Source: Euhalothece natronophila Z-M001
GTDB lineage: Bacteria > Cyanobacteriota > Cyanobacteriia > Cyanobacteriales > Rubidibacteraceae
Direction of reading: 5' to 3'
Assembly: GCF_007904085.1 (NCBI RefSeq)
Contig: NZ_CP042326.1
Location: 620,001-684,000 of the forward strand
DNA length: 64,000 nt
Part shown: positions 3,249-49,450 of the stretch, piece by piece
Layout: every line of letters starts with the position of its first letter
Position numbering within the stretch: the first letter of the stretch is position 1
Notes under the pieces: generated by a model
The model's input: the letters and a program-made list of their open reading frames with translations, nothing else
What the model was told of the DNA's origin: nothing
The model's database searches: none
Translations under genes and position numbers: made by a program

Positions 3249-5789
3249 ATGGACTTTATTTCGCTTTGGCTAGCTTACCAACTGAGTGTTGTCTCGCCAT
3301 CGTCTGATCTTGCTACAGATTCTAGCAAAGAGGAAGTACAGTTTGTTTTTAATGTGTCCTCTACGCAAGATAACCAAGCAGATAGTACAGGCAAAACCAT
3401 TAAGTTCAATTTATCTCCAGAAGGGGAGTCAATAGAGGAAGGGGTTGTTGATGCGGCGCGATCGCTGCAACTTGCCTTTGAAAGTGATGGCTCTGGTTCT
3501 TTTTGGTCTGGCTTTTTTAATACCCTCAAACAGGGGGTTTTGCGAGTCATTGAAGCGGTACAACAATTAATTATCAATGTTCAAGAATCGGTGCAACCGA
3601 GTAGTAGTAGTGAAGAAACTACAGTTAAGGAAATAATCCCGAAAGAATCCTATGCGTTGCGCTATCTGGGAATTGAAGATATTAACCGTCTAACAGGGCT
3701 TTCTGCTACGGAAATTAATGATTTTGCCCCCATGGAGAAAAAGCCTGTGGTTAGCCCTGATGTCAAATCCCTACACTTAGCCTCAGTAGAAAAGTTAGAA
3801 AAAGAGCCAGAAAAAGATATCTTTGACCCCCAAGTTGGTACAAAATTTCATGAAGATGGTTCAGTGACCTTACGGGTTTTAGTGGGTAATGATTTTGAAC
3901 GCCTCCATGTCATTGGAGACTTTAATAATTGGGGAGACACAGACAACTTAGCGGCTTATACCCTGCAACCTACGGAACAAAATCCTCATGTCCATGCTGT
4001 CACCCTTCCCCCTAATGACTATCATAAGAAACAATATCGCTTAGTGGATCAAGATGGAGAACAACGGGTGGATTTAGGGGCAACTTTACTTTCTACCCCT
4101 GCATTTAATGAGCGATTTTATGAAGATCAAAAGAGCCATGAATTAAATTCTGTGTTCTGGAATCCCACCCCTATTCCTGAAGAAGAACGCGCCCCCACGT
4201 TAGATTTACGCGGTAAGCAGTTAACCATTGCTGAAACCGATGTTCTCTCTTTGGCAATGAAATGGCAATGTCAAAATCCTGACTCTGACTTTTATGGGGA
4301 TACGGGGGAAGAACACATCCCTCGCTTATACAATTTTGTCCGCGAGTGTGGACTCCCCGAAGCTATGGCAAAATTAGGCTATAACACCGTGGAGTTTATG
4401 CCTCTCGATACCCATGTGGATTTTTGGGAACCAGGGGCTGAGTATCTTCCAGATTGGCGATACAGTTATCAAACCATTAGCTTTTATGGGAAACATCCCG
4501 ACTTTGGTAGCCCTGATGAACTGCGGCAAATGGTGAATGCTTTTCATAAGTCTGATGTAGCTGTTCTCTTGGATGTGGTTTATAGTCACTATTCGCCTCG
4601 GGGGAATAACCCGCCGCGAGAGTTTGCCCCTGCTGGCTTTTCCCAATATGTTTCCCAAGATGGAGGGGAGTTGTATGGTGCCGCTTGGACAGAGTGGGGA
4701 ACCCGTCGCTTTAATTACACCCCAGAAATTCGGAAAAATTTGATTGATGCGGGATTAGTGAACTTAATTGATTATGGGTTTGATGGCTTACGCATTGATA
4801 ATGTCAATGGTATTGATGCCCAGCCCTACGGACGGGAGTTCTTAAAAGAATTAACAGCGGCCGTGGATAAATATCGTCCTCAGTCAGTGGTTATTGGCGA
4901 GGGGTATTTTGGCGATCCTTACCTGAATCGATCGCGCGATAATGGTGGCGCTGGTTTACTCACGACTTACAGCGATCGCTTTTATCTCTGGTTTACGGAA
5001 AATCTACTCAAATATGTGGATGAGATTGACACTCGCAAGCTAGATTATATGCTCTCTGAAGACTGGCCCCTTGCTATGTTGTATTATCCAGGGAATCATG
5101 ATGAATTTGCTAATCCTGGTAACCCCTTTCAAGCAAGAGGTCGGTATTTAGCTGATGCAATTGATGGGGGAGAACATAACCAGAAGATCCGTTCTTGGTC
5201 AGCCTTAACCCTCTTTGCCAGTTCCTACTATTTAGATATGTTCCAACTGTGGACGATGCAGGAAGGAAACCTGAATAGTAACGCCCCTATTAACTGGTCT
5301 AAGTTGACAGAAGAGGAAGTGGCGCAAATGGTGCAGTTTCAAGGAGATATGAAACGCTTTTTCCGCGCACAACCAGCGTTTGCTCCCTATAATATGCACC
5401 GTAATATGTTGCATTGGGTGGATCATGAAAATAAAGTGGTCACTTTTGAGCGGATTGATTTTGAAACAGGACAACGAGTTTATGCGGTAACGAATTTAGG
5501 GGATCATGAAATTGAGAATTATAAAATTCCTGTATTCCCCGAAGATGCGAAATTTGAAGTTGCTCTAGACAGCGATCGCGCAATTTACGGTGGCGAAGAA
5601 AATAATCCCAAATTTATCAAAGCCGCCGATCATGAGGTAGAGTTTTCTTTGGATGCTTATGGGGTGGTTGGTTTAGTCCAAGCTGATGGCTATCAACCTG
5701 AACCCACTGGAGATATTCCAGCAGAAGAACCCATTGAGCGTCCTCGTTTTGAAAACGACTTCTTCTACAACACGAAATACCGTCCGTAA
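3249..5789 (+). CDS. GH13 alpha-amylase/branching-enzyme-like protein with CBM48-type domain
   Basis: A protein of 846 residues. About 190 N-terminal residues look low-complexity or linker-like. They are followed by an E-set/CBM48-like domain (LHVIGDFNNWGD near residue 220) and a GH13 barrel with all four conserved regions: LLDVVYSHY, GLRIDNVNG (nucleophile Asp 517), VIGEGYF (Glu 551) and PGNHDE (Asp 618). The domain order resembles glycogen-branching and related enzymes, but the long N-terminus is unusual. There is no clear signal peptide. The pullulanase gene starts 3 bases after the stop, so the two are almost certainly co-transcribed and act on the same glucan. Confidence 0.85.
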   Translation: MDFISLWLAYQLSVVSPSSDLATDSSKEEVQFVFNVSSTQDNQADSTGKTIKFNLSPEGESIEEGVVDAARSLQLAFESDGSGSFWSGFFNTLKQGVLRVIEAVQQLIINVQESVQPSSSSEETTVKEIIPKESYALRYLGIEDINRLTGLSATEINDFAPMEKKPVVSPDVKSLHLASVEKLEKEPEKDIFDPQVGTKFHEDGSVTLRVLVGNDFERLHVIGDFNNWGDTDNLAAYTLQPTEQNPHVHAVTLPPNDYHKKQYRLVDQDGEQRVDLGATLLSTPAFNERFYEDQKSHELNSVFWNPTPIPEEERAPTLDLRGKQLTIAETDVLSLAMKWQCQNPDSDFYGDTGEEHIPRLYNFVRECGLPEAMAKLGYNTVEFMPLDTHVDFWEPGAEYLPDWRYSYQTISFYGKHPDFGSPDELRQMVNAFHKSDVAVLLDVVYSHYSPRGNNPPREFAPAGFSQYVSQDGGELYGAAWTEWGTRRFNYTPEIRKNLIDAGLVNLIDYGFDGLRIDNVNGIDAQPYGREFLKELTAAVDKYRPQSVVIGEGYFGDPYLNRSRDNGGAGLLTTYSDRFYLWFTENLLKYVDEIDTRKLDYMLSEDWPLAMLYYPGNHDEFANPGNPFQARGRYLADAIDGGEHNQKIRSWSALTLFASSYYLDMFQLWTMQEGNLNSNAPINWSKLTEEEVAQMVQFQGDMKRFFRAQPAFAPYNMHRNMLHWVDHENKVVTFERIDFETGQRVYAVTNLGDHEIENYKIPVFPEDAKFEVALDSDRAIYGGEENNPKFIKAADHEVEFSLDAYGVVGLVQADGYQPEPTGDIPAEEPIERPRFENDFFYNTKYRP

Positions 5790-12802: not shown

Positions 12803-13123
12803 TTACCAGCCTTTTTCTGCTTGGCTTAAAACATACTCAGCAACTGCCTCAATTTGAGATGAAGTTAATCTTCCTCGAAATGCAGGCATCGCTCTTTTTC
12901 CATTGGTAACTTGTTGGACAATGTTTTCTTTAGAGTCCATATTGTATCGAGCTAAAGCATCTTGTTTTAGAGTTTTATTTGCCATAATCCGATTGCCTCC
13001 ACCAGCATGGCAAGCCGCACAGTTAGCCTGAAAAATTTGCTCACCACTAGGAGCCGCTTGAACAGGAGAAGCAATAACTAAGAAAGTCACTAACAGAAGA
13101 GATGCAATTATTTTCCGAATCAT
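12803..13123 (-). CDS. petJ: Cytochrome c6 (cytochrome c-553)
   Basis: A 106-residue precursor with a signal peptide to about residue 23 (cleavage after PVQA), giving a mature lumenal protein of ~83 residues. CAACH (35-39) is the haem-attachment motif, and Met 79 in RAMPAF is the likely sixth haem ligand. Cytochrome c6 carries electrons from the cytochrome b6f complex to photosystem I or the terminal oxidase, replacing plastocyanin when copper is scarce. It is divergent from znuA across a 237-base intergenic region, so metal-responsive control of both sides is plausible but unproven. Confidence 0.93.
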   Translation of the reverse strand: MIRKIIASLLLVTFLVIASPVQAAPSGEQIFQANCAACHAGGGNRIMANKTLKQDALARYNMDSKENIVQQVTNGKRAMPAFRGRLTSSQIEAVAEYVLSQAEKGW

Positions 13124-44038: not shown

Positions 44039-44157
44039 ACTGTTATTGAATTGAGTTTAGATTGAGAGCGCGATGTGCGTAGCACGCTTGCCTTTGGCTT
44101 ATCGCGCTTTCACTTCAGCTCTCACAACTGGTTGCCGTAAAGCAAAATCCAACCAAC

Positions 44158-44619
44158 ATGGTCACAGAATCTCAACAAGCACAAAAGCCACTCTATGAAA
44201 CCGATTATTACCTCTGGATTTTAAAAACGGTTCAAAAACTCCAAAATCGAGAATTGGAAGCGATTGACTGGGAGAATCTAATTGATGAGGTATCGGATTT
44301 GAGTCGGCGGGAAAAAAGAAAACTACAAAGTTTATTAAAACGGCTATTTGAGCATCTGCTGAAACTCAAATACTGGGAAAATGAAGCAGAGAGAAATCGC
44401 AGACATTGGCGGGGAGAAATTGCTAACTTCCGCCAACAAATTAAATATCAGTTAGAAGATAGTCCGAGCTTAAACTCCTACTTAAAGGAAATTTTTAATC
44501 AATCTTATCGAGATGCGAGAGTGATTGCATCGGAAAAATCAGGATTATCCCTTGGCATCTTTCCTGAAGAACCGATCGCGCCTTTAGAGCAAATTTTAGA
44601 TGAAAACTGGTTACCATAA
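44158..44619 (+). CDS. DUF29 family protein, copy 1
   Basis: A 153-residue helical protein with the DUF29 pattern: LYETDYYLWILKTVQKLQNRELEAIDWENLIDE, SRREKRKLQSLLKRLFEHLLKLKYW and a C-terminal ILDENWLP. DUF29 proteins are abundant in cyanobacteria and their function is not established. Forty-five bases downstream is a Uma2 gene, an arrangement repeated at the second copy. The sequence before its ATG (AACTGGTTGCCGTAAAG) looks like the 3' end of another DUF29 gene. Confidence 0.85.
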   Translation: MVTESQQAQKPLYETDYYLWILKTVQKLQNRELEAIDWENLIDEVSDLSRREKRKLQSLLKRLFEHLLKLKYWENEAERNRRHWRGEIANFRQQIKYQLEDSPSLNSYLKEIFNQSYRDARVIASEKSGLSLGIFPEEPIAPLEQILDENWLP

Positions 44620-44664
44620 AGTAAAATCAAATCCTCATCGAAGCCGTTTTACCTAACTGAAATC

Positions 44665-45282
44665 ATGAGTGTTGCTCTCAACCGTTCCCTAATTTACCCT
44701 GATAGTGATGGCCAGCCCATGGCAGACAATACCAAACAATTTCGCTGGATTGTTCTGATCAAAGAAAACTTAGAACTCCTGTTTGCTAACGATCCAGAAG
44801 TCTTTGTAGCCGGGGATTTACTATGGTATCCCGTAGAAGGTCATCCCGAAATTCGCGTTGCTCCTGATGCCATGGTAGTATTTGGCAGACCAAAAGGCGA
44901 TCGCGGTTCTTATCGTCAATGGGAAGAAGACAATATTGCCCCCCAAGTAGTGTTTGAAATCCTTTCTCCTGGCAATCGACTCAGGGAAATGACTCGTAAA
45001 TGGGAATTTTATGATCGCTATGGCGTAGAAGAGTATTATATATACGACCCTGATGATAATGAGTTAGAAGGATTGCAGCGCCAAGAGGGAAGACTGAGAG
45101 TGATTCCAGAAATAGATCATTGGGTAAGCCCAAGATTAGAAATAAAATTTGTTCCGACTCCAGAAACTTTAGAAATTTACCGTCCTGATGGTAGAAAATT
45201 TTTATCGACTCTTGAACTCGAACAACGAGCTGAAAAATTAGCAGCCCAGCTTAGAGCATTAGGAGTTGAACCAGACGTTTAA
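44665..45282 (+). CDS. Uma2 family nuclease-like protein, copy 1
   Basis: A 205-residue PD-(D/E)xK-fold protein (DUF820/Uma2). Candidate active-site residues are Asp in RVAPDAMVVFGRP, Glu in VVFEILSPGN and Lys in MTRKWEFYDRYG. YYIYDPDDNELEG is the usual following strand. Uma2 proteins are expanded in cyanobacteria; nuclease activity is predicted from the fold and not shown here. The gene forms a unit with the DUF29 gene upstream and is nearly identical over its first ~310 bases to the copy at 45979. Confidence 0.85.
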   Translation: MSVALNRSLIYPDSDGQPMADNTKQFRWIVLIKENLELLFANDPEVFVAGDLLWYPVEGHPEIRVAPDAMVVFGRPKGDRGSYRQWEEDNIAPQVVFEILSPGNRLREMTRKWEFYDRYGVEEYYIYDPDDNELEGLQRQEGRLRVIPEIDHWVSPRLEIKFVPTPETLEIYRPDGRKFLSTLELEQRAEKLAAQLRALGVEPDV

Positions 45283-45327
45283 TCCATTTCTGAACAGTAA
45301 AAACCATGTTCTTGCTATTGGTTTTTA

Positions 45328-45421
45328 GGGTTAGACAAATCTAGATTTGAATTAACTGCGCGATCGCGCCTCCCAGGATTAGACAAATCTATAATTGAAT
45401 TAACTGCGCGATCGCGCCTCC
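45328..45421 (+). repeat. Two tandem ~48-base repeats containing HIP1 palindromes
   Basis: Two direct copies of a unit with TTAGACAAATCTA, GAATTAACTG and CGCGATCGCGCCTCC, differing at a few positions. They lie in the spacer between DUF29-Uma2 units 1 and 2 and may mark a recombination junction. Confidence 0.7.
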
Positions 45422-45471
45422 TAATAAAATAATAAATAACAACTGGTTGGCATAAAGTCAAAGCAAAAAGC

Positions 45472-45933
45472 ATGGTCGTACCATCTCAAAAAAAACAAAA
45501 AAAACTCTATGAAACCGATTACCATCTTTGGGTATTAGAAACTGTTAAAAACTTACAAAATAAAGAGTTTGAAGCGATTGATTGGGAAAACTTAATTGAG
45601 GAAGTATCAGATTTGGGGCGGCGAGATCGGAAGAAGCTGAAAAGCCTGCTTAAAAAATTAATAGAACATTTACTGAAACTCAAATATTGGCAAGCTGAGA
45701 AGAGTAGGAATCAAGGACATTGGCAAGCAGAAATTACTAACTTTCGTCAACTCATTCAAGATGAATTAGAAGATAGCCCGAGTTTGCAACCTTATCTGCA
45801 TGAAATTTATCCTCAATGTTATACCGAAGCCCGAAAAATTGCCTCTCAACGTTCTCAACTTCCCCTAAATACCTTCCCTGAAGAACCGATCGCGCCTTTA
45901 GAGCAAATTTTAGATGAAAACTGGTTACCATAA
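45472..45933 (+). CDS. DUF29 family protein, copy 2
   Basis: A 153-residue paralog of the first DUF29 protein, the same length and clearly alignable (LYETDYHLWVLETVKNLQNKEFEAIDWENLIEE, ILDENWLP end), but diverged through the middle. Its last ~55 bases, the 45-base spacer and the start of the next gene are nearly identical to unit 1, which indicates duplication or gene conversion limited to the junction. Function unknown. Confidence 0.85.
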   Translation: MVVPSQKKQKKLYETDYHLWVLETVKNLQNKEFEAIDWENLIEEVSDLGRRDRKKLKSLLKKLIEHLLKLKYWQAEKSRNQGHWQAEITNFRQLIQDELEDSPSLQPYLHEIYPQCYTEARKIASQRSQLPLNTFPEEPIAPLEQILDENWLP

Positions 45934-45978
45934 AGTAAAATCAAATCCTCATCGAAGCCGTTTTACCTAACTGAAATC

Positions 45979-46659
45979 ATGAGTGTTGCTCTCAACCGTT
46001 CCTTAATTTATCCTGATAGTGATGGCCAGCCCATGGCAGACAATACCAAACAATTTCGCTGGATTGTTCTGATTAAAGAAAACTTAGAACTCCTGTTTGC
46101 AAACGATCCAGAAGTCTTTGTGGCGGGGGATTTACTATGGTATCCCGTAGAAGGTCATCCTGAAATTCGCGTTGCTCCTGATGCTATGGTAGTATTTGGC
46201 AGACCAAAAGGCGATCGCGGTTCTTATCGTCAATGGGAAGAAGACAATATTACCCCCCAAGTAGTGTTTGAAATCCTTTCTCCTGGCAATCGGGTAAAAG
46301 AAATGACCCGAAAACTACAGTTTTATGAACGTTATGGAGTAGAAGAGTATTATATATACGACCCCGATGAGAATGAATTAGAAGGATTGCAGCGAAAAGA
46401 AGGCAATTTAGAGTTAATAGAAGACATGAATGGCTGGGTGAGTCCCCAACTAGGCATTAAGTTCGTTTTAACTCCTGAAACCCTAGAAATCTATCGTCCT
46501 GATGGTAGAAAGTTTTTGTCTTCTCTGGAATTAGAACAACGCGCTGAACAAGAAGCTGAACGAGCGCAACAGGCAACTCAACGAGCCGAACAAGAAGCTC
46601 AACGCGCCAACCGTCTAGCGGAGCAATTGAGAGCCTTGGGGATTGATCCTGAAACCTAA
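45979..46659 (+). CDS. Uma2 family nuclease-like protein, copy 2
   Basis: A 226-residue paralog of copy 1 with the same PD-(D/E)xK candidates (PDAMVV, FEILSPGN, MTRKLQFY). It has an extra C-terminal heptad-like stretch, EQEAERAQQATQRAEQEAQRANRLAEQ, that could form a coiled coil. The 5' ~310 bases match copy 1 almost exactly; the 3' part is diverged, suggesting recombination within the gene. Confidence 0.85.
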   Translation: MSVALNRSLIYPDSDGQPMADNTKQFRWIVLIKENLELLFANDPEVFVAGDLLWYPVEGHPEIRVAPDAMVVFGRPKGDRGSYRQWEEDNITPQVVFEILSPGNRVKEMTRKLQFYERYGVEEYYIYDPDENELEGLQRKEGNLELIEDMNGWVSPQLGIKFVLTPETLEIYRPDGRKFLSSLELEQRAEQEAERAQQATQRAEQEAQRANRLAEQLRALGIDPET

Positions 46660-46711
46660 CTTACCCTTGAAACTGCCTATAATATAAGTAAGTCTAACAG
46701 GAATTTTGGTT

Positions 46712-47398
46712 ATGACTTCTCTCTCAGTTCCCTTCCAAAAACCCCCTATTCTGGAAAACGGCGATCGCGTTACTCGTGATGAATTTGAGCGACGCTACCA
46801 TCGGATGGGCAATGTCAAAAAAGCGGAATTAATTGAAGGAACTGTCTATATGCCTTCTCCAGTGCGAGCAACGCGACATGGAAATCCTCACAGCTTAATG
46901 ATCACTTGGCTTACAGTTTATGGCGCAAAAAATCCCCATTTAATGGTTTGTGATAATACAACTGTTCGTCTTGATTTTGACAATGAACCGCAACCAGATG
47001 GGCTATTGCGTCTGGAGGAAGCAGTGGGGGGAAATTCTCGGATTAGCGAAGATGATTATCTTGAAGGCGCACCGGAATTAATCGTGGAAATTGCCAGCAG
47101 TAGCGCGTCCTATTATATACACGATAAGTTACAAGTTTACCGTCGCAATGGGGTACGGGAATATTTGGTTTGGTTGGTGGAGGATCAGGAGTTTCGGTGG
47201 TATATTTGGCAGGAAGGAACTTATCATCAACAACAGGGGGATGATTCTGGAGTTTTGAAGAGTCCCTTCTTTATTGGGTTGTGGTTGGATGTATCAGCCC
47301 TGTTAGCAGGAGAGATGCAACAGGTGCTATCGGTGCTGAATTCTGGAATTAATTCCTCAGAACATCAATCTTTTGTTGAGCAGTTAGGTAACACTTAA
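46712..47398 (+). CDS. Uma2 family nuclease-like protein, copy 3 (full-length, second subfamily)
   Basis: About 228 residues from ATG 46712. It has the ENGDRVTRDEFERRYHRM start common to this subfamily, Asp in EPQPDGLLRLEEA, Glu in LIVEIASSSAS and Lys in HDKLQVYRRNG, then EYLVWLVEDQEF. An in-frame TTG two codons upstream is a less likely start. Its 3' two thirds are nearly identical to the truncated copy at 48833 and partly to the remnant at 48016. Predicted nuclease, target unknown. Confidence 0.85.
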   Translation: MTSLSVPFQKPPILENGDRVTRDEFERRYHRMGNVKKAELIEGTVYMPSPVRATRHGNPHSLMITWLTVYGAKNPHLMVCDNTTVRLDFDNEPQPDGLLRLEEAVGGNSRISEDDYLEGAPELIVEIASSSASYYIHDKLQVYRRNGVREYLVWLVEDQEFRWYIWQEGTYHQQQGDDSGVLKSPFFIGLWLDVSALLAGEMQQVLSVLNSGINSSEHQSFVEQLGNT

Positions 47399-47442
47399 TC
47401 AGCAAGCGCGATGTCCCTTGGCGACCGTCTAAAGTACATCGT

Positions 47443-47478
47443 GCAGTTCGATCAAGTCTTAGATGAAAACTGGTAGTC
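47443..47478 (+). pseudogene. 3'-end fragment of a DUF29 gene
   Basis: The sequence reads QVLDENW and a stop, the exact end of DUF29 proteins, with no upstream body. It sits just before DUF29 copy 3 and is one of several such 3'-end scars that precede DUF29 genes in this region. Confidence 0.6.
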
Positions 47479-47499
47479 CTAAAGTCAAATTAAATAAAA

Positions 47500-47961
47500 A
47501 TGGTAGCAGAATCAAAGCAAGCGCAAAAACAACTTTATGAAACTGATTATCATCTCTGGGTAGTAGAGACTGTAAAAAAACTCCAAAATCGAGATTTTAA
47601 CACGATTAACTGGGAGGATTTGATTGATGAGGTATCTGATTTGAGTCGGCGAGAGAAGCAAAAATTGAAAAGTTTACTCAAAAGGTTGGTGGAACATTTG
47701 CTAAAACTCAAATACTGGGAATCTCAACTTAAAGAGAACGAAGCACATTGGAAAAGAGAAATTTTGAATTTCCGTCAGCAACTCCAAGAAATTTTAGCTG
47801 ATAGTCCGAGCTTAAAGCCATATATCAAGGAAGTTTATCCTGAATGCTACCGAAAGGGGCGCAAACTTGCCTCCACTGCCTCAGGATTACCTTTAACGTC
47901 TTTTCCTTCGGAACCAATCGCGCCCCTCGATAAAATTTTAGATGAAAACTGGTTGCCATAA
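47500..47961 (+). CDS. DUF29 family protein, copy 3
   Basis: A 153-residue DUF29 protein (LYETDYHLWVVETVKKLQNRDFNTINWEDLIDE, LKSLLKRLVEHLLKLKYW, ILDENWLP end), intact like the other two. The partner Uma2 gene expected 45 bases downstream is here reduced to a fused remnant. The first half is closer to copy 1 than to copy 2. Function unknown. Confidence 0.85.
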   Translation: MVAESKQAQKQLYETDYHLWVVETVKKLQNRDFNTINWEDLIDEVSDLSRREKQKLKSLLKRLVEHLLKLKYWESQLKENEAHWKREILNFRQQLQEILADSPSLKPYIKEVYPECYRKGRKLASTASGLPLTSFPSEPIAPLDKILDENWLP

Positions 47962-47997: not shown

Positions 47998-48171
47998 TGA
48001 CAACAATTATCGCCAGATGAGTCGGGAATTTTGAAAAGTCCCTTTTTCCCTGGGCTGTGGTTGGATGTATCGGCATTATTAGCAGGAGAGATGCAACAGG
48101 TGCTATCTGTGCTCAACTCAGGAATCAGTTCCTCAGAACATCAAGCCTTGGTTGAGAGGTTCAATAATTAA
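47998..48171 (+). pseudogene. Fused Uma2 remnant
   Basis: A 5' start of one Uma2 type (ATG, MTTIIA) is joined after about six codons, out of frame, to the C-terminal ~50 codons of the other type (DESGILKSPFFPGLWLDVSALLAGEMQQ ... HQALVERFNN, stop). The catalytic core is gone. It is evidence of recombination between Uma2 paralogs. Confidence 0.65.
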
Positions 48172-48188
48172 AGAAAGAGCTAAATATT

Positions 48189-48773
48189 ATGACTGCCATC
48201 ATTATTCCTAATGGATTTAAAGTGACCTCCACACAGTTCGACGAACTTGCAGAGAGTAACACAGATGTTCGCATGGAACTAACAGCACAAGGAGAATTAA
48301 TTACTATGCCTCCAACGGGTGGCAGTGCGGGAAAATGCAACTTTAATCTTTACCTAGATTTAGGCTTTTGGAACCGAAGCACTGGTTTAGGTGTCGCTTT
48401 TGACTCCTCAACGATTTTTATTCTGCCCAATGGAGCCAGACGTTCTCCAGATGTGGCTTGGGTGAGGTTAGAAACCTGGCAATCCTTAACTCCAGAAGAA
48501 CAAGATGGATTCCCTCCCCTAGTTCCAGACTTTGTAATTGAATTAGTCAGCCCTAGCGACCTGAAAAAACAAAATTATAAAGACCTACAAGGAAAGATGC
48601 TGGAATATTTAGAGAATGGTGTCAGACTAGGATGGCTAATTGAGCCTAAAACTCGCAAGGTAGAAATTTATCGTCAGGGGCAGGCGGTTGAGATTCTGCA
48701 AAACCCGAAATCTCTTAGTGGAGAAGATGTCCTCCCTAGCTTTGTTCTCAACTTAGACCTGATTTGGAGCTAG
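48189..48773 (+). CDS. Uma2 family nuclease-like protein, copy 4 (third subfamily)
   Basis: A 194-residue Uma2 protein with Asp in RRSPDVAWVRL, Glu in DFVIELVSPSD and Lys in LQGKMLEYLENG, then LIEPKTRKVEIYRQG. The N-terminus (MTAIIIPNGFKVTSTQFDEL) matches the 5' stub in the remnant just upstream. It belongs to a different Uma2 subfamily from copies 1-3. Complete and probably functional; target unknown. Confidence 0.85.
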   Translation: MTAIIIPNGFKVTSTQFDELAESNTDVRMELTAQGELITMPPTGGSAGKCNFNLYLDLGFWNRSTGLGVAFDSSTIFILPNGARRSPDVAWVRLETWQSLTPEEQDGFPPLVPDFVIELVSPSDLKKQNYKDLQGKMLEYLENGVRLGWLIEPKTRKVEIYRQGQAVEILQNPKSLSGEDVLPSFVLNLDLIWS

Positions 48774-48832
48774 AAACAACCCTCCCTCAGTGATCACGTA
48801 TCACGTGACCACTGAGAAATTTGAGTGACATC

Positions 48833-49324
48833 ATGACTTGGTTGGGAGTCTATCGTGCAGCTACTCCAAGGGTTTATAGTGCTGATAATACAACAGTTCG
48901 ACTCGATTTTGACAATGAACCGCAACCTGATGCTCTGTTGCGTCTGGAGGAAGCAGTGGGGGGAAATTCTCGGATTAGCGAAGATGATTATCTTGAGGGC
49001 GCACCGGAATTAATCGTGGAAATTGCCAGCAGTAGCGCATCCTATGATGTACACGATAAGTTACAAGTTTACCGTCGCAATGGAGTACGGGAATATTTGG
49101 TTTGGTTGGTGGAGGATCAGGAGTTTCGGTGGTATATTTGGCAGGAAGGAACTTATCATCAACAACAGGGGGATGAGTCTGGAGTTTTGAAGAGTCCTTT
49201 CTTTATTGGGTTATGGTTGGATGTATCAGCCCTGTTAGCAGGAGAGATGCAACAGGTGCTATCGGTGCTAAACTCAGGAATTAATTCCTCAGAACATCAA
49301 TCTTTTGTTGAGAAGTTGGGTTAA
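48833..49324 (+). CDS. Uma2 family protein, N-terminally truncated copy 5
   Basis: The frame begins within the family's second helix (MTWLGVYRAATPRVYSADNTTVRLDF) and lacks ~60 residues present in copy 3, while keeping the Asp (EPQPDALL), Glu (LIVEIAS) and Lys (HDKLQVY) positions. From DNTTVRLDF on it is nearly identical to copy 3 at DNA level. An imperfect palindrome lies just before it. Likely a partial duplicate; folding without the N-terminus is doubtful. Confidence 0.65.
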   Translation: MTWLGVYRAATPRVYSADNTTVRLDFDNEPQPDALLRLEEAVGGNSRISEDDYLEGAPELIVEIASSSASYDVHDKLQVYRRNGVREYLVWLVEDQEFRWYIWQEGTYHQQQGDESGVLKSPFFIGLWLDVSALLAGEMQQVLSVLNSGINSSEHQSFVEKLG

Positions 49325-49450
49325 GTTGAATTCTCTACTTTGCGCGATCGCGCTATAGAAGAATATCCCTTACAATGTAGAATAGCCAGTATGCTGTTGC
49401 CTGACAACCAATAGTAGCAAACGTCTCACCCATAAGCTAGGGATTCCAAA

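Follow-up and report, generated by a model that had tools for sequence, protein, structure and literature searches.

The DUF29 genes of the cyanobacterium Euhalothece natronophila Z-M001 raise a simple question: why does the sequence with which a DUF29 gene ends also stand just ahead of where the next one begins? The genes lie in a 64,000-nt stretch of DNA (NZ_CP042326.1, positions 620,001 to 684,000; hereafter the window, whose first letter is position 1), in which three DUF29 genes are interleaved with genes of the Uma2 family, and each of the three is preceded by a short tail-like scar. A first-pass annotation had taken these scars as a sign that the unit expands by recombination at the DUF29 3' end. 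Our analysis indicates instead that the scars are very probably what is left of the 3' ends of DUF29 genes, former immediate upstream neighbors in head-to-tail arrays, and that the repeated sequence most likely reflects the ordinary decay of genes rather than a signal for duplication. We favor this reading because the genus contains such arrays, because the scars keep the spacing of the arrays, and because the reading frame of scar 3 is broken.

When up to three mismatches are allowed, the tail motif AACTGGTTGCCNTAAAG has six matches in the 64 kb against a chance expectation of 0.87, and in 100 shuffles of the window the count never reached six (maximum 4). Three matches lie upstream of DUF29 genes, at 44126 (0 mismatches), 45441 (1) and 47468 (2), and end 15, 14 and 15 nt ahead of the ATGs at 44158, 45472 and 47500, respectively; the other three, at 44605, 45919 and 47947, lie at the stops of these same genes. 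With up to two mismatches the whole genome holds nine matches, six of them in this window, and a reversed control pattern yields two. These counts bear out the annotated motif ahead of all three DUF29 starts, and alignments with DUF29 tails confirm that the scars are DUF29 3' ends.

All relics are sense-oriented homologs of the DUF29 family tail that end at the stop, and in the window the relic stop lies 16-17 nt from the ATG. Scars 2 and 3 are longer than first described (about 45406-45455 and 47404-47482). Scar 3 aligns with the DUF29 tails of relatives from 47404 on; the codons said to survive near 47443 are indeed present (GAT CAA GTC TTA GAT GAA AAC TGG) and are followed in frame by a TAG in place of the Leu codon found in intact tails. 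Coding capacity is also lost in relics of the sister genome G003, through a TGA within the tail. Scar 2, aligned without gaps over 50 nt, matches two DUF29 tails at 34/50 and 36/50 positions and reaches back to a GCGATCGCGCC site at ~45408; relics also precede the orthologs of its gene in two sister genomes (G003_6597 and G005_L124_3399). Taken singly, scar 1 is the weakest, with a score of 30 against a maximum of 27 from 15 shuffles of the 250 nt upstream. Because that test was limited to 15 shuffles per gene, and because a number of genes barely top their own maximum at places other than the tail, we do not base the case for scar 1 on it. An ungapped test over 70 nt recovers the scar at 15/15 positions (score 15, null maximum 6.0), and the scar and its gene together (44122-44619) align contiguously with positions 4010-4507 of the G005 locus L125 at 80%. 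Separately, a 47-nt direct repeat with a GCGATCGC site lies at 45327-45421 in two copies that are 94% identical, the second of which enters the start of scar 2.

For scar 3, the sister genome G005 carries more at the corresponding place. Behind A, G005 has a 5' fragment of Uma2, a Uma2 gene, Uma2-B, a DUF29 pseudogene in two pieces, two intact DUF29 genes and B, and the window has Uma2, Uma2-B, scar 3 and B (A and B being paralog groups of DUF29 defined below). Positions 47438-47961 of the window align contiguously with the G005 tail, spacer and gene B (85.6%), and scar 3 can be aligned with the pseudogene tail of G005 over a stretch that takes in a palindromic insert, present in both, at a GCGATCGC-like site; nearly the same insert lies inside intact DUF29 genes of G003 (C1 250485 and 251568). 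With one pseudogene and two intact DUF29 copies in G005 at this place, scar 3 points to loss. The stages of decay within the genus comprise the two-piece pseudogene of G005, a DUF29 piece of ~200 nt after Uma2-B in G001, relics of ~35-46 nt in G003 and G005, and the relics of the window. Relatives thus have an intact tandem copy or a longer pseudogene at the place that corresponds to scar 3; the orthologs of the gene behind scar 2 have relics as well, and for scar 1 no such counterpart was found.

Two further observations concern the same region. The palindromic insert (window 47404-47450, L124 and G003) occurs in intact DUF29 tails and in relics alike. In G001, Uma2-B homology runs straight into the DUF29 fragment, and the window's own Uma2-B (46706-47398) ends beside the relic at 47404; the last Uma2-B codons may thus be derived from the DUF29 relic.

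To place the scars in context, six genomes of the genus were searched, and the 52 DUF29 genes that were full length and had a start were assigned to upstream classes by eye and by alignment. Ten have an upstream DUF29 gene or long DUF29 fragment, eight a short relic and 34 neither. In the first class the stop-to-ATG spacer is 12-43 nt in seven cases and ~80-117 nt in the other three (G002_L161_4339, L131 and L132). The eight short relics comprise the three in the window, two each in G003 and G005 and one in G001, and six of them beat their own shuffled maximum at the tail in the 15-shuffle test. Those ahead of G005_L125_4045 and G001_L153_5347 pass the ungapped test alone (9.0 and 8.9, null maximum 6.0), while the two G003 relics fail that test, which permits no gaps. 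One more relic, the ninth, lies in G005 L126 ahead of a broken DUF29 gene and was left out of the count. Overall, the ungapped test flags 13 of the 52 genes, including G002_L141_2441, whose match, at 46 nt from the ATG, is probably due to chance. Debris from the opposite end of a gene was also observed: in G003 L147 (~12804-12847) a DUF29 5' fragment, identical to another copy at 42/43 nt, lies upstream of a DUF29 gene.

A tree of the 52 proteins places the window genes in three separate groups. Group A unites the gene at 45472 with G003_6597 and G005_L124_3399 (support 100/99); a relic precedes all three, but the relics have decayed differently, that of G003 having lost most of the motif. Group B joins the gene at 47500 with G003_7071 and G005_L124_7422 (100/100), both of which stand directly behind an intact DUF29 gene. 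Group C pairs the gene at 44158 with G003_10763 (98/88), and a larger group adds G002_L161_3760 and G005_L125_4045 (98/92). Because the window genes have separate orthologs in sister genomes, the simplest reading of the tree is that all three predate the split of these species and are old paralogs, with no recent expansion. A recent triplication of the DUF29 unit is rejected on the same grounds.

The expectation that the same scar would be found upstream of DUF29 genes elsewhere failed as a general rule. Of 113 genes found, 99 full-length genes outside the genus remained once 10 identical copies and 4 genus genes (loci L007 and L020) had been dropped. A tblastn search detected DUF29 homology upstream of 17 of these 99, namely 15 intact neighbors, one fragment (L013_5108) and one broken copy that the end of the locus cuts off (L009_486). 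The corresponding figure for other open reading frames, 27 of 334 and mostly due to an intact DUF29 gene next door, is not a clean background, as the loci are centered on DUF29. In the ungapped test, which takes the gene's own tail for comparison, eight genes outside the genus are flagged, seven in tandem and L169_3867. Here a short scar does recur, at the head of an array in another genus: no DUF29 gene precedes L169_3867, and ahead of it (~3810-3867) lies an exact array tail (24/24; ~28 nt by reading) with a copy of the spacer, the scar before the array and the spacers after the first three genes being identical. The sequences indicate that this scar is of the same kind and arose independently, with a different tail sequence. 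Tandem DUF29 genes occur in several lineages (for example L008, L018, L023, L050, L019, L169, L170 and L172), and some arrays, such as L008, L018 and L023, have no scar in the 70 nt before their first gene. The scar is tied to tandem arrangement and is not shared by DUF29 genes in general; a general DUF29 upstream element is rejected because of its absence from most of the outside genes examined.

These observations suggest a sequence of events in which a head-to-tail DUF29 array came first and its upstream members were then lost. Either deletion across the repeated DUF29 tails or replacement by Uma2 genes would have eliminated the upstream copies, and the last few dozen bases may have stayed since the spacer behind them harbors the start region of the gene that survived. 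Units 1 and 2 would later have exchanged sequence, which homogenized the DUF29 tail and the Uma2 5' part between them.

Several observations weigh against this account. The parent of scar 2 is not seen whole, the orthologs of gene A carrying relics as well. No group C ortholog was found directly behind an intact DUF29 gene, so the origin of scar 1 is proposed by analogy, and two of the three group C orthologs (G003 and G002) lack a scar and differ in their upstream region. Retention for the sake of the spacer suits the spacing, yet these same two orthologs manage without a scar. The last 17 nt of scars 1 and 2 seem better kept than the preceding bases, a pattern not predicted by plain neutral decay. 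In two of the ten tandem or long-fragment cases (L131 and L132) a contig end truncates the upstream copy. Finally, the orthology of Uma2-B is positional: the G005 gene is closer to the window's truncated Uma2 at 48824-49372 (81.9%) than to Uma2-B (78.1%), and the other Uma2 genes are ordered differently in the two genomes. This caution, together with the L169 array, slightly lowers our confidence in the relic account.

An alternative that we consider unlikely is that the scar is a functional leader, part of a translation start region or promoter, and resembles a tail only because arrays place tails there. The constant distance to the ATG (16-17 nt in the six relics measured) and the better-kept final 17 nt would fit such a role, as would an AGGA right behind the stop at two junctions in the genus (G003 and G001). 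However, the window's own spacers lack AGGA, and the element is not conserved in orthologs across species, given the scarless group C genes and the eroded motif of the G003 group A gene. A leader role may apply to the spacer alone and not to the coding tail.

We consider it quite improbable that the DUF29 3' end is instead a duplication site, where a gene between two tail copies is amplified or deleted by tail-tail recombination. Units 1 and 2 do keep a constant offset of 1314 nt from the scar through Uma2, and they share a homogenized tract of 416 bp (407/416 identical, from 44563) that starts in the DUF29 tail; the alignment indicates that recombination with an edge in the DUF29 tail took place in this cluster. 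To this extent the original proposal stands. However, because the tract begins within an intact DUF29 tail and not in a scar, we regard it as a homogenization event and not as the origin of the scars. It is a patch between diverged flanks (76/123 just before, 84/102 after), and we found no young copies with scar junctions in the window: the genes are old paralogs, and the tract at 44563-44978 alone is young. The tree also points to a separate array history for each of the three window genes. Expansion is likewise at odds with scar 3, which corresponds to the place of lost neighbors, and with arrays that have no scar before their first gene. The likelihood that we assign to this alternative was raised because of the L169 array, whose identical scar and first three spacers are what tail-tail recombination would leave and whose members may be young.

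It is highly improbable that the genes of Uma2, a family of predicted PD-(D/E)XK nucleases, take the place of DUF29 genes or insert into them by a homing-like process that leaves the tail behind, since, although scars and fragments follow Uma2 genes or tails at scars 2 and 3, L125, L126, L124 and L153, the relic start points differ, L144 (the site of two G003 relics) has no Uma2 match, and a link between Uma2 and DUF29 was looked for outside the genus and not seen (any Uma2 in 8 of 79 loci, with a model built from Uma2 genes of the window and genus loci that distant Uma2 may escape). Just as remote is the prospect that Uma2 genes recurrently replace upstream DUF29 genes of arrays by a targeted, homing-like exchange at the tail; if true, a selfish nuclease family would be using DUF29 arrays as landing sites.

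In all, three DUF29 genes, five Uma2 genes and one Uma2 3' fragment lie in the window (Table 1), and six DUF29 matches were found in the organism's own genome. A Uma2 stretch at 48165-48788 shares 96% DNA identity with G005 L124rc 4564-5187, which is differently placed in the order. Because other matches between the window and L124 are ~71-87%, and because of the different place in the order, sequence comparison suggests recent transfer or exchange of this stretch.

Table 1. Coordinates of the DUF29 and Uma2 genes, scars and homogenized tract in the window.
Feature	Position	Strand	Evidence or remark
Scar 1, short DUF29 3' tail relic, ~17 nt	44126..44142	+	Relic stop to ATG 17 nt
DUF29 gene, paralog group C	44158..44619	+	Pfam PF01724, E 2.3e-49; tree
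Homogenized tract, copy 1: DUF29 tail, spacer and Uma2 5' part	44563..44978	+	407/416 identical to 45877-46292
Uma2 gene	44665..45282	+	Pfam PF05685
Scar 2, degenerate DUF29 3' tail, GCGATCGCGCC site to relic stop	45406..45455	+	DUF29-tail alignment
DUF29 gene, paralog group A	45472..45933	+	Pfam, E 8.2e-51; tree
Homogenized tract, copy 2	45877..46292	+	407/416 identical to copy 1, 1314 nt apart
Uma2 gene	45979..46659	+	Pfam
Uma2 gene (Uma2-B)	46706..47398	+	Positional counterpart of Uma2 before DUF29 pseudogene (G005) or fragment (G001)
Scar 3, DUF29 3' relic with palindromic insert, frame broken by TAG	47404..47482	+	DUF29 tails of relatives
DUF29 gene, paralog group B	47500..47961	+	Pfam; tree; G003 and G005 orthologs directly behind intact DUF29
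Uma2 gene 3' fragment, array debris	48003..48165	+	Comparable fragment in G001
Uma2 gene	48189..48773	+	Pfam
5'-truncated Uma2 gene	48821..49324	+	Pfam

Truncated pseudogene remnants in tandem gene arrays are a known general phenomenon, and on the relic reading our finding is a further instance of it. The likeness lies in 3' pieces of a member left before the next member after deletion, in graded decay and in broken frames; nothing essential differs, apart from the marked shortness of the pieces and the presence of three of them in one 3.4-kb stretch. All three DUF29 genes match PF01724, and the sequence of the second gene matches one chain of the solved member 3fcn, an entry whose title gives the function as unknown; this has no bearing on the scars. 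In the literature searched, no paper was found with DUF29 or PF01724 as a whole word, and nothing on these arrays; the available passages of PMC12038448 concern DUF2996, and PMC3710099 does not contain DUF29 as a whole word. Cyanobacterial Uma2 genes are described as lying mostly in cassettes of paralogs and as predicted PD-(D/E)XK endonucleases (PMC2701414, in the portion available). The window likewise has several Uma2 paralogs close together; unlike those cassettes, its Uma2 genes are interleaved with DUF29, which is absent from the main text of that paper.

The cluster illustrates that a striking repeat ahead of genes can be what lost tandem neighbors have left behind, rather than a mobile or regulatory element, and provides a stepwise series of decay inside one cyanobacterial genus. 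It also urges caution: gene-tail repeats should not be taken for recombination signals without orthologs.

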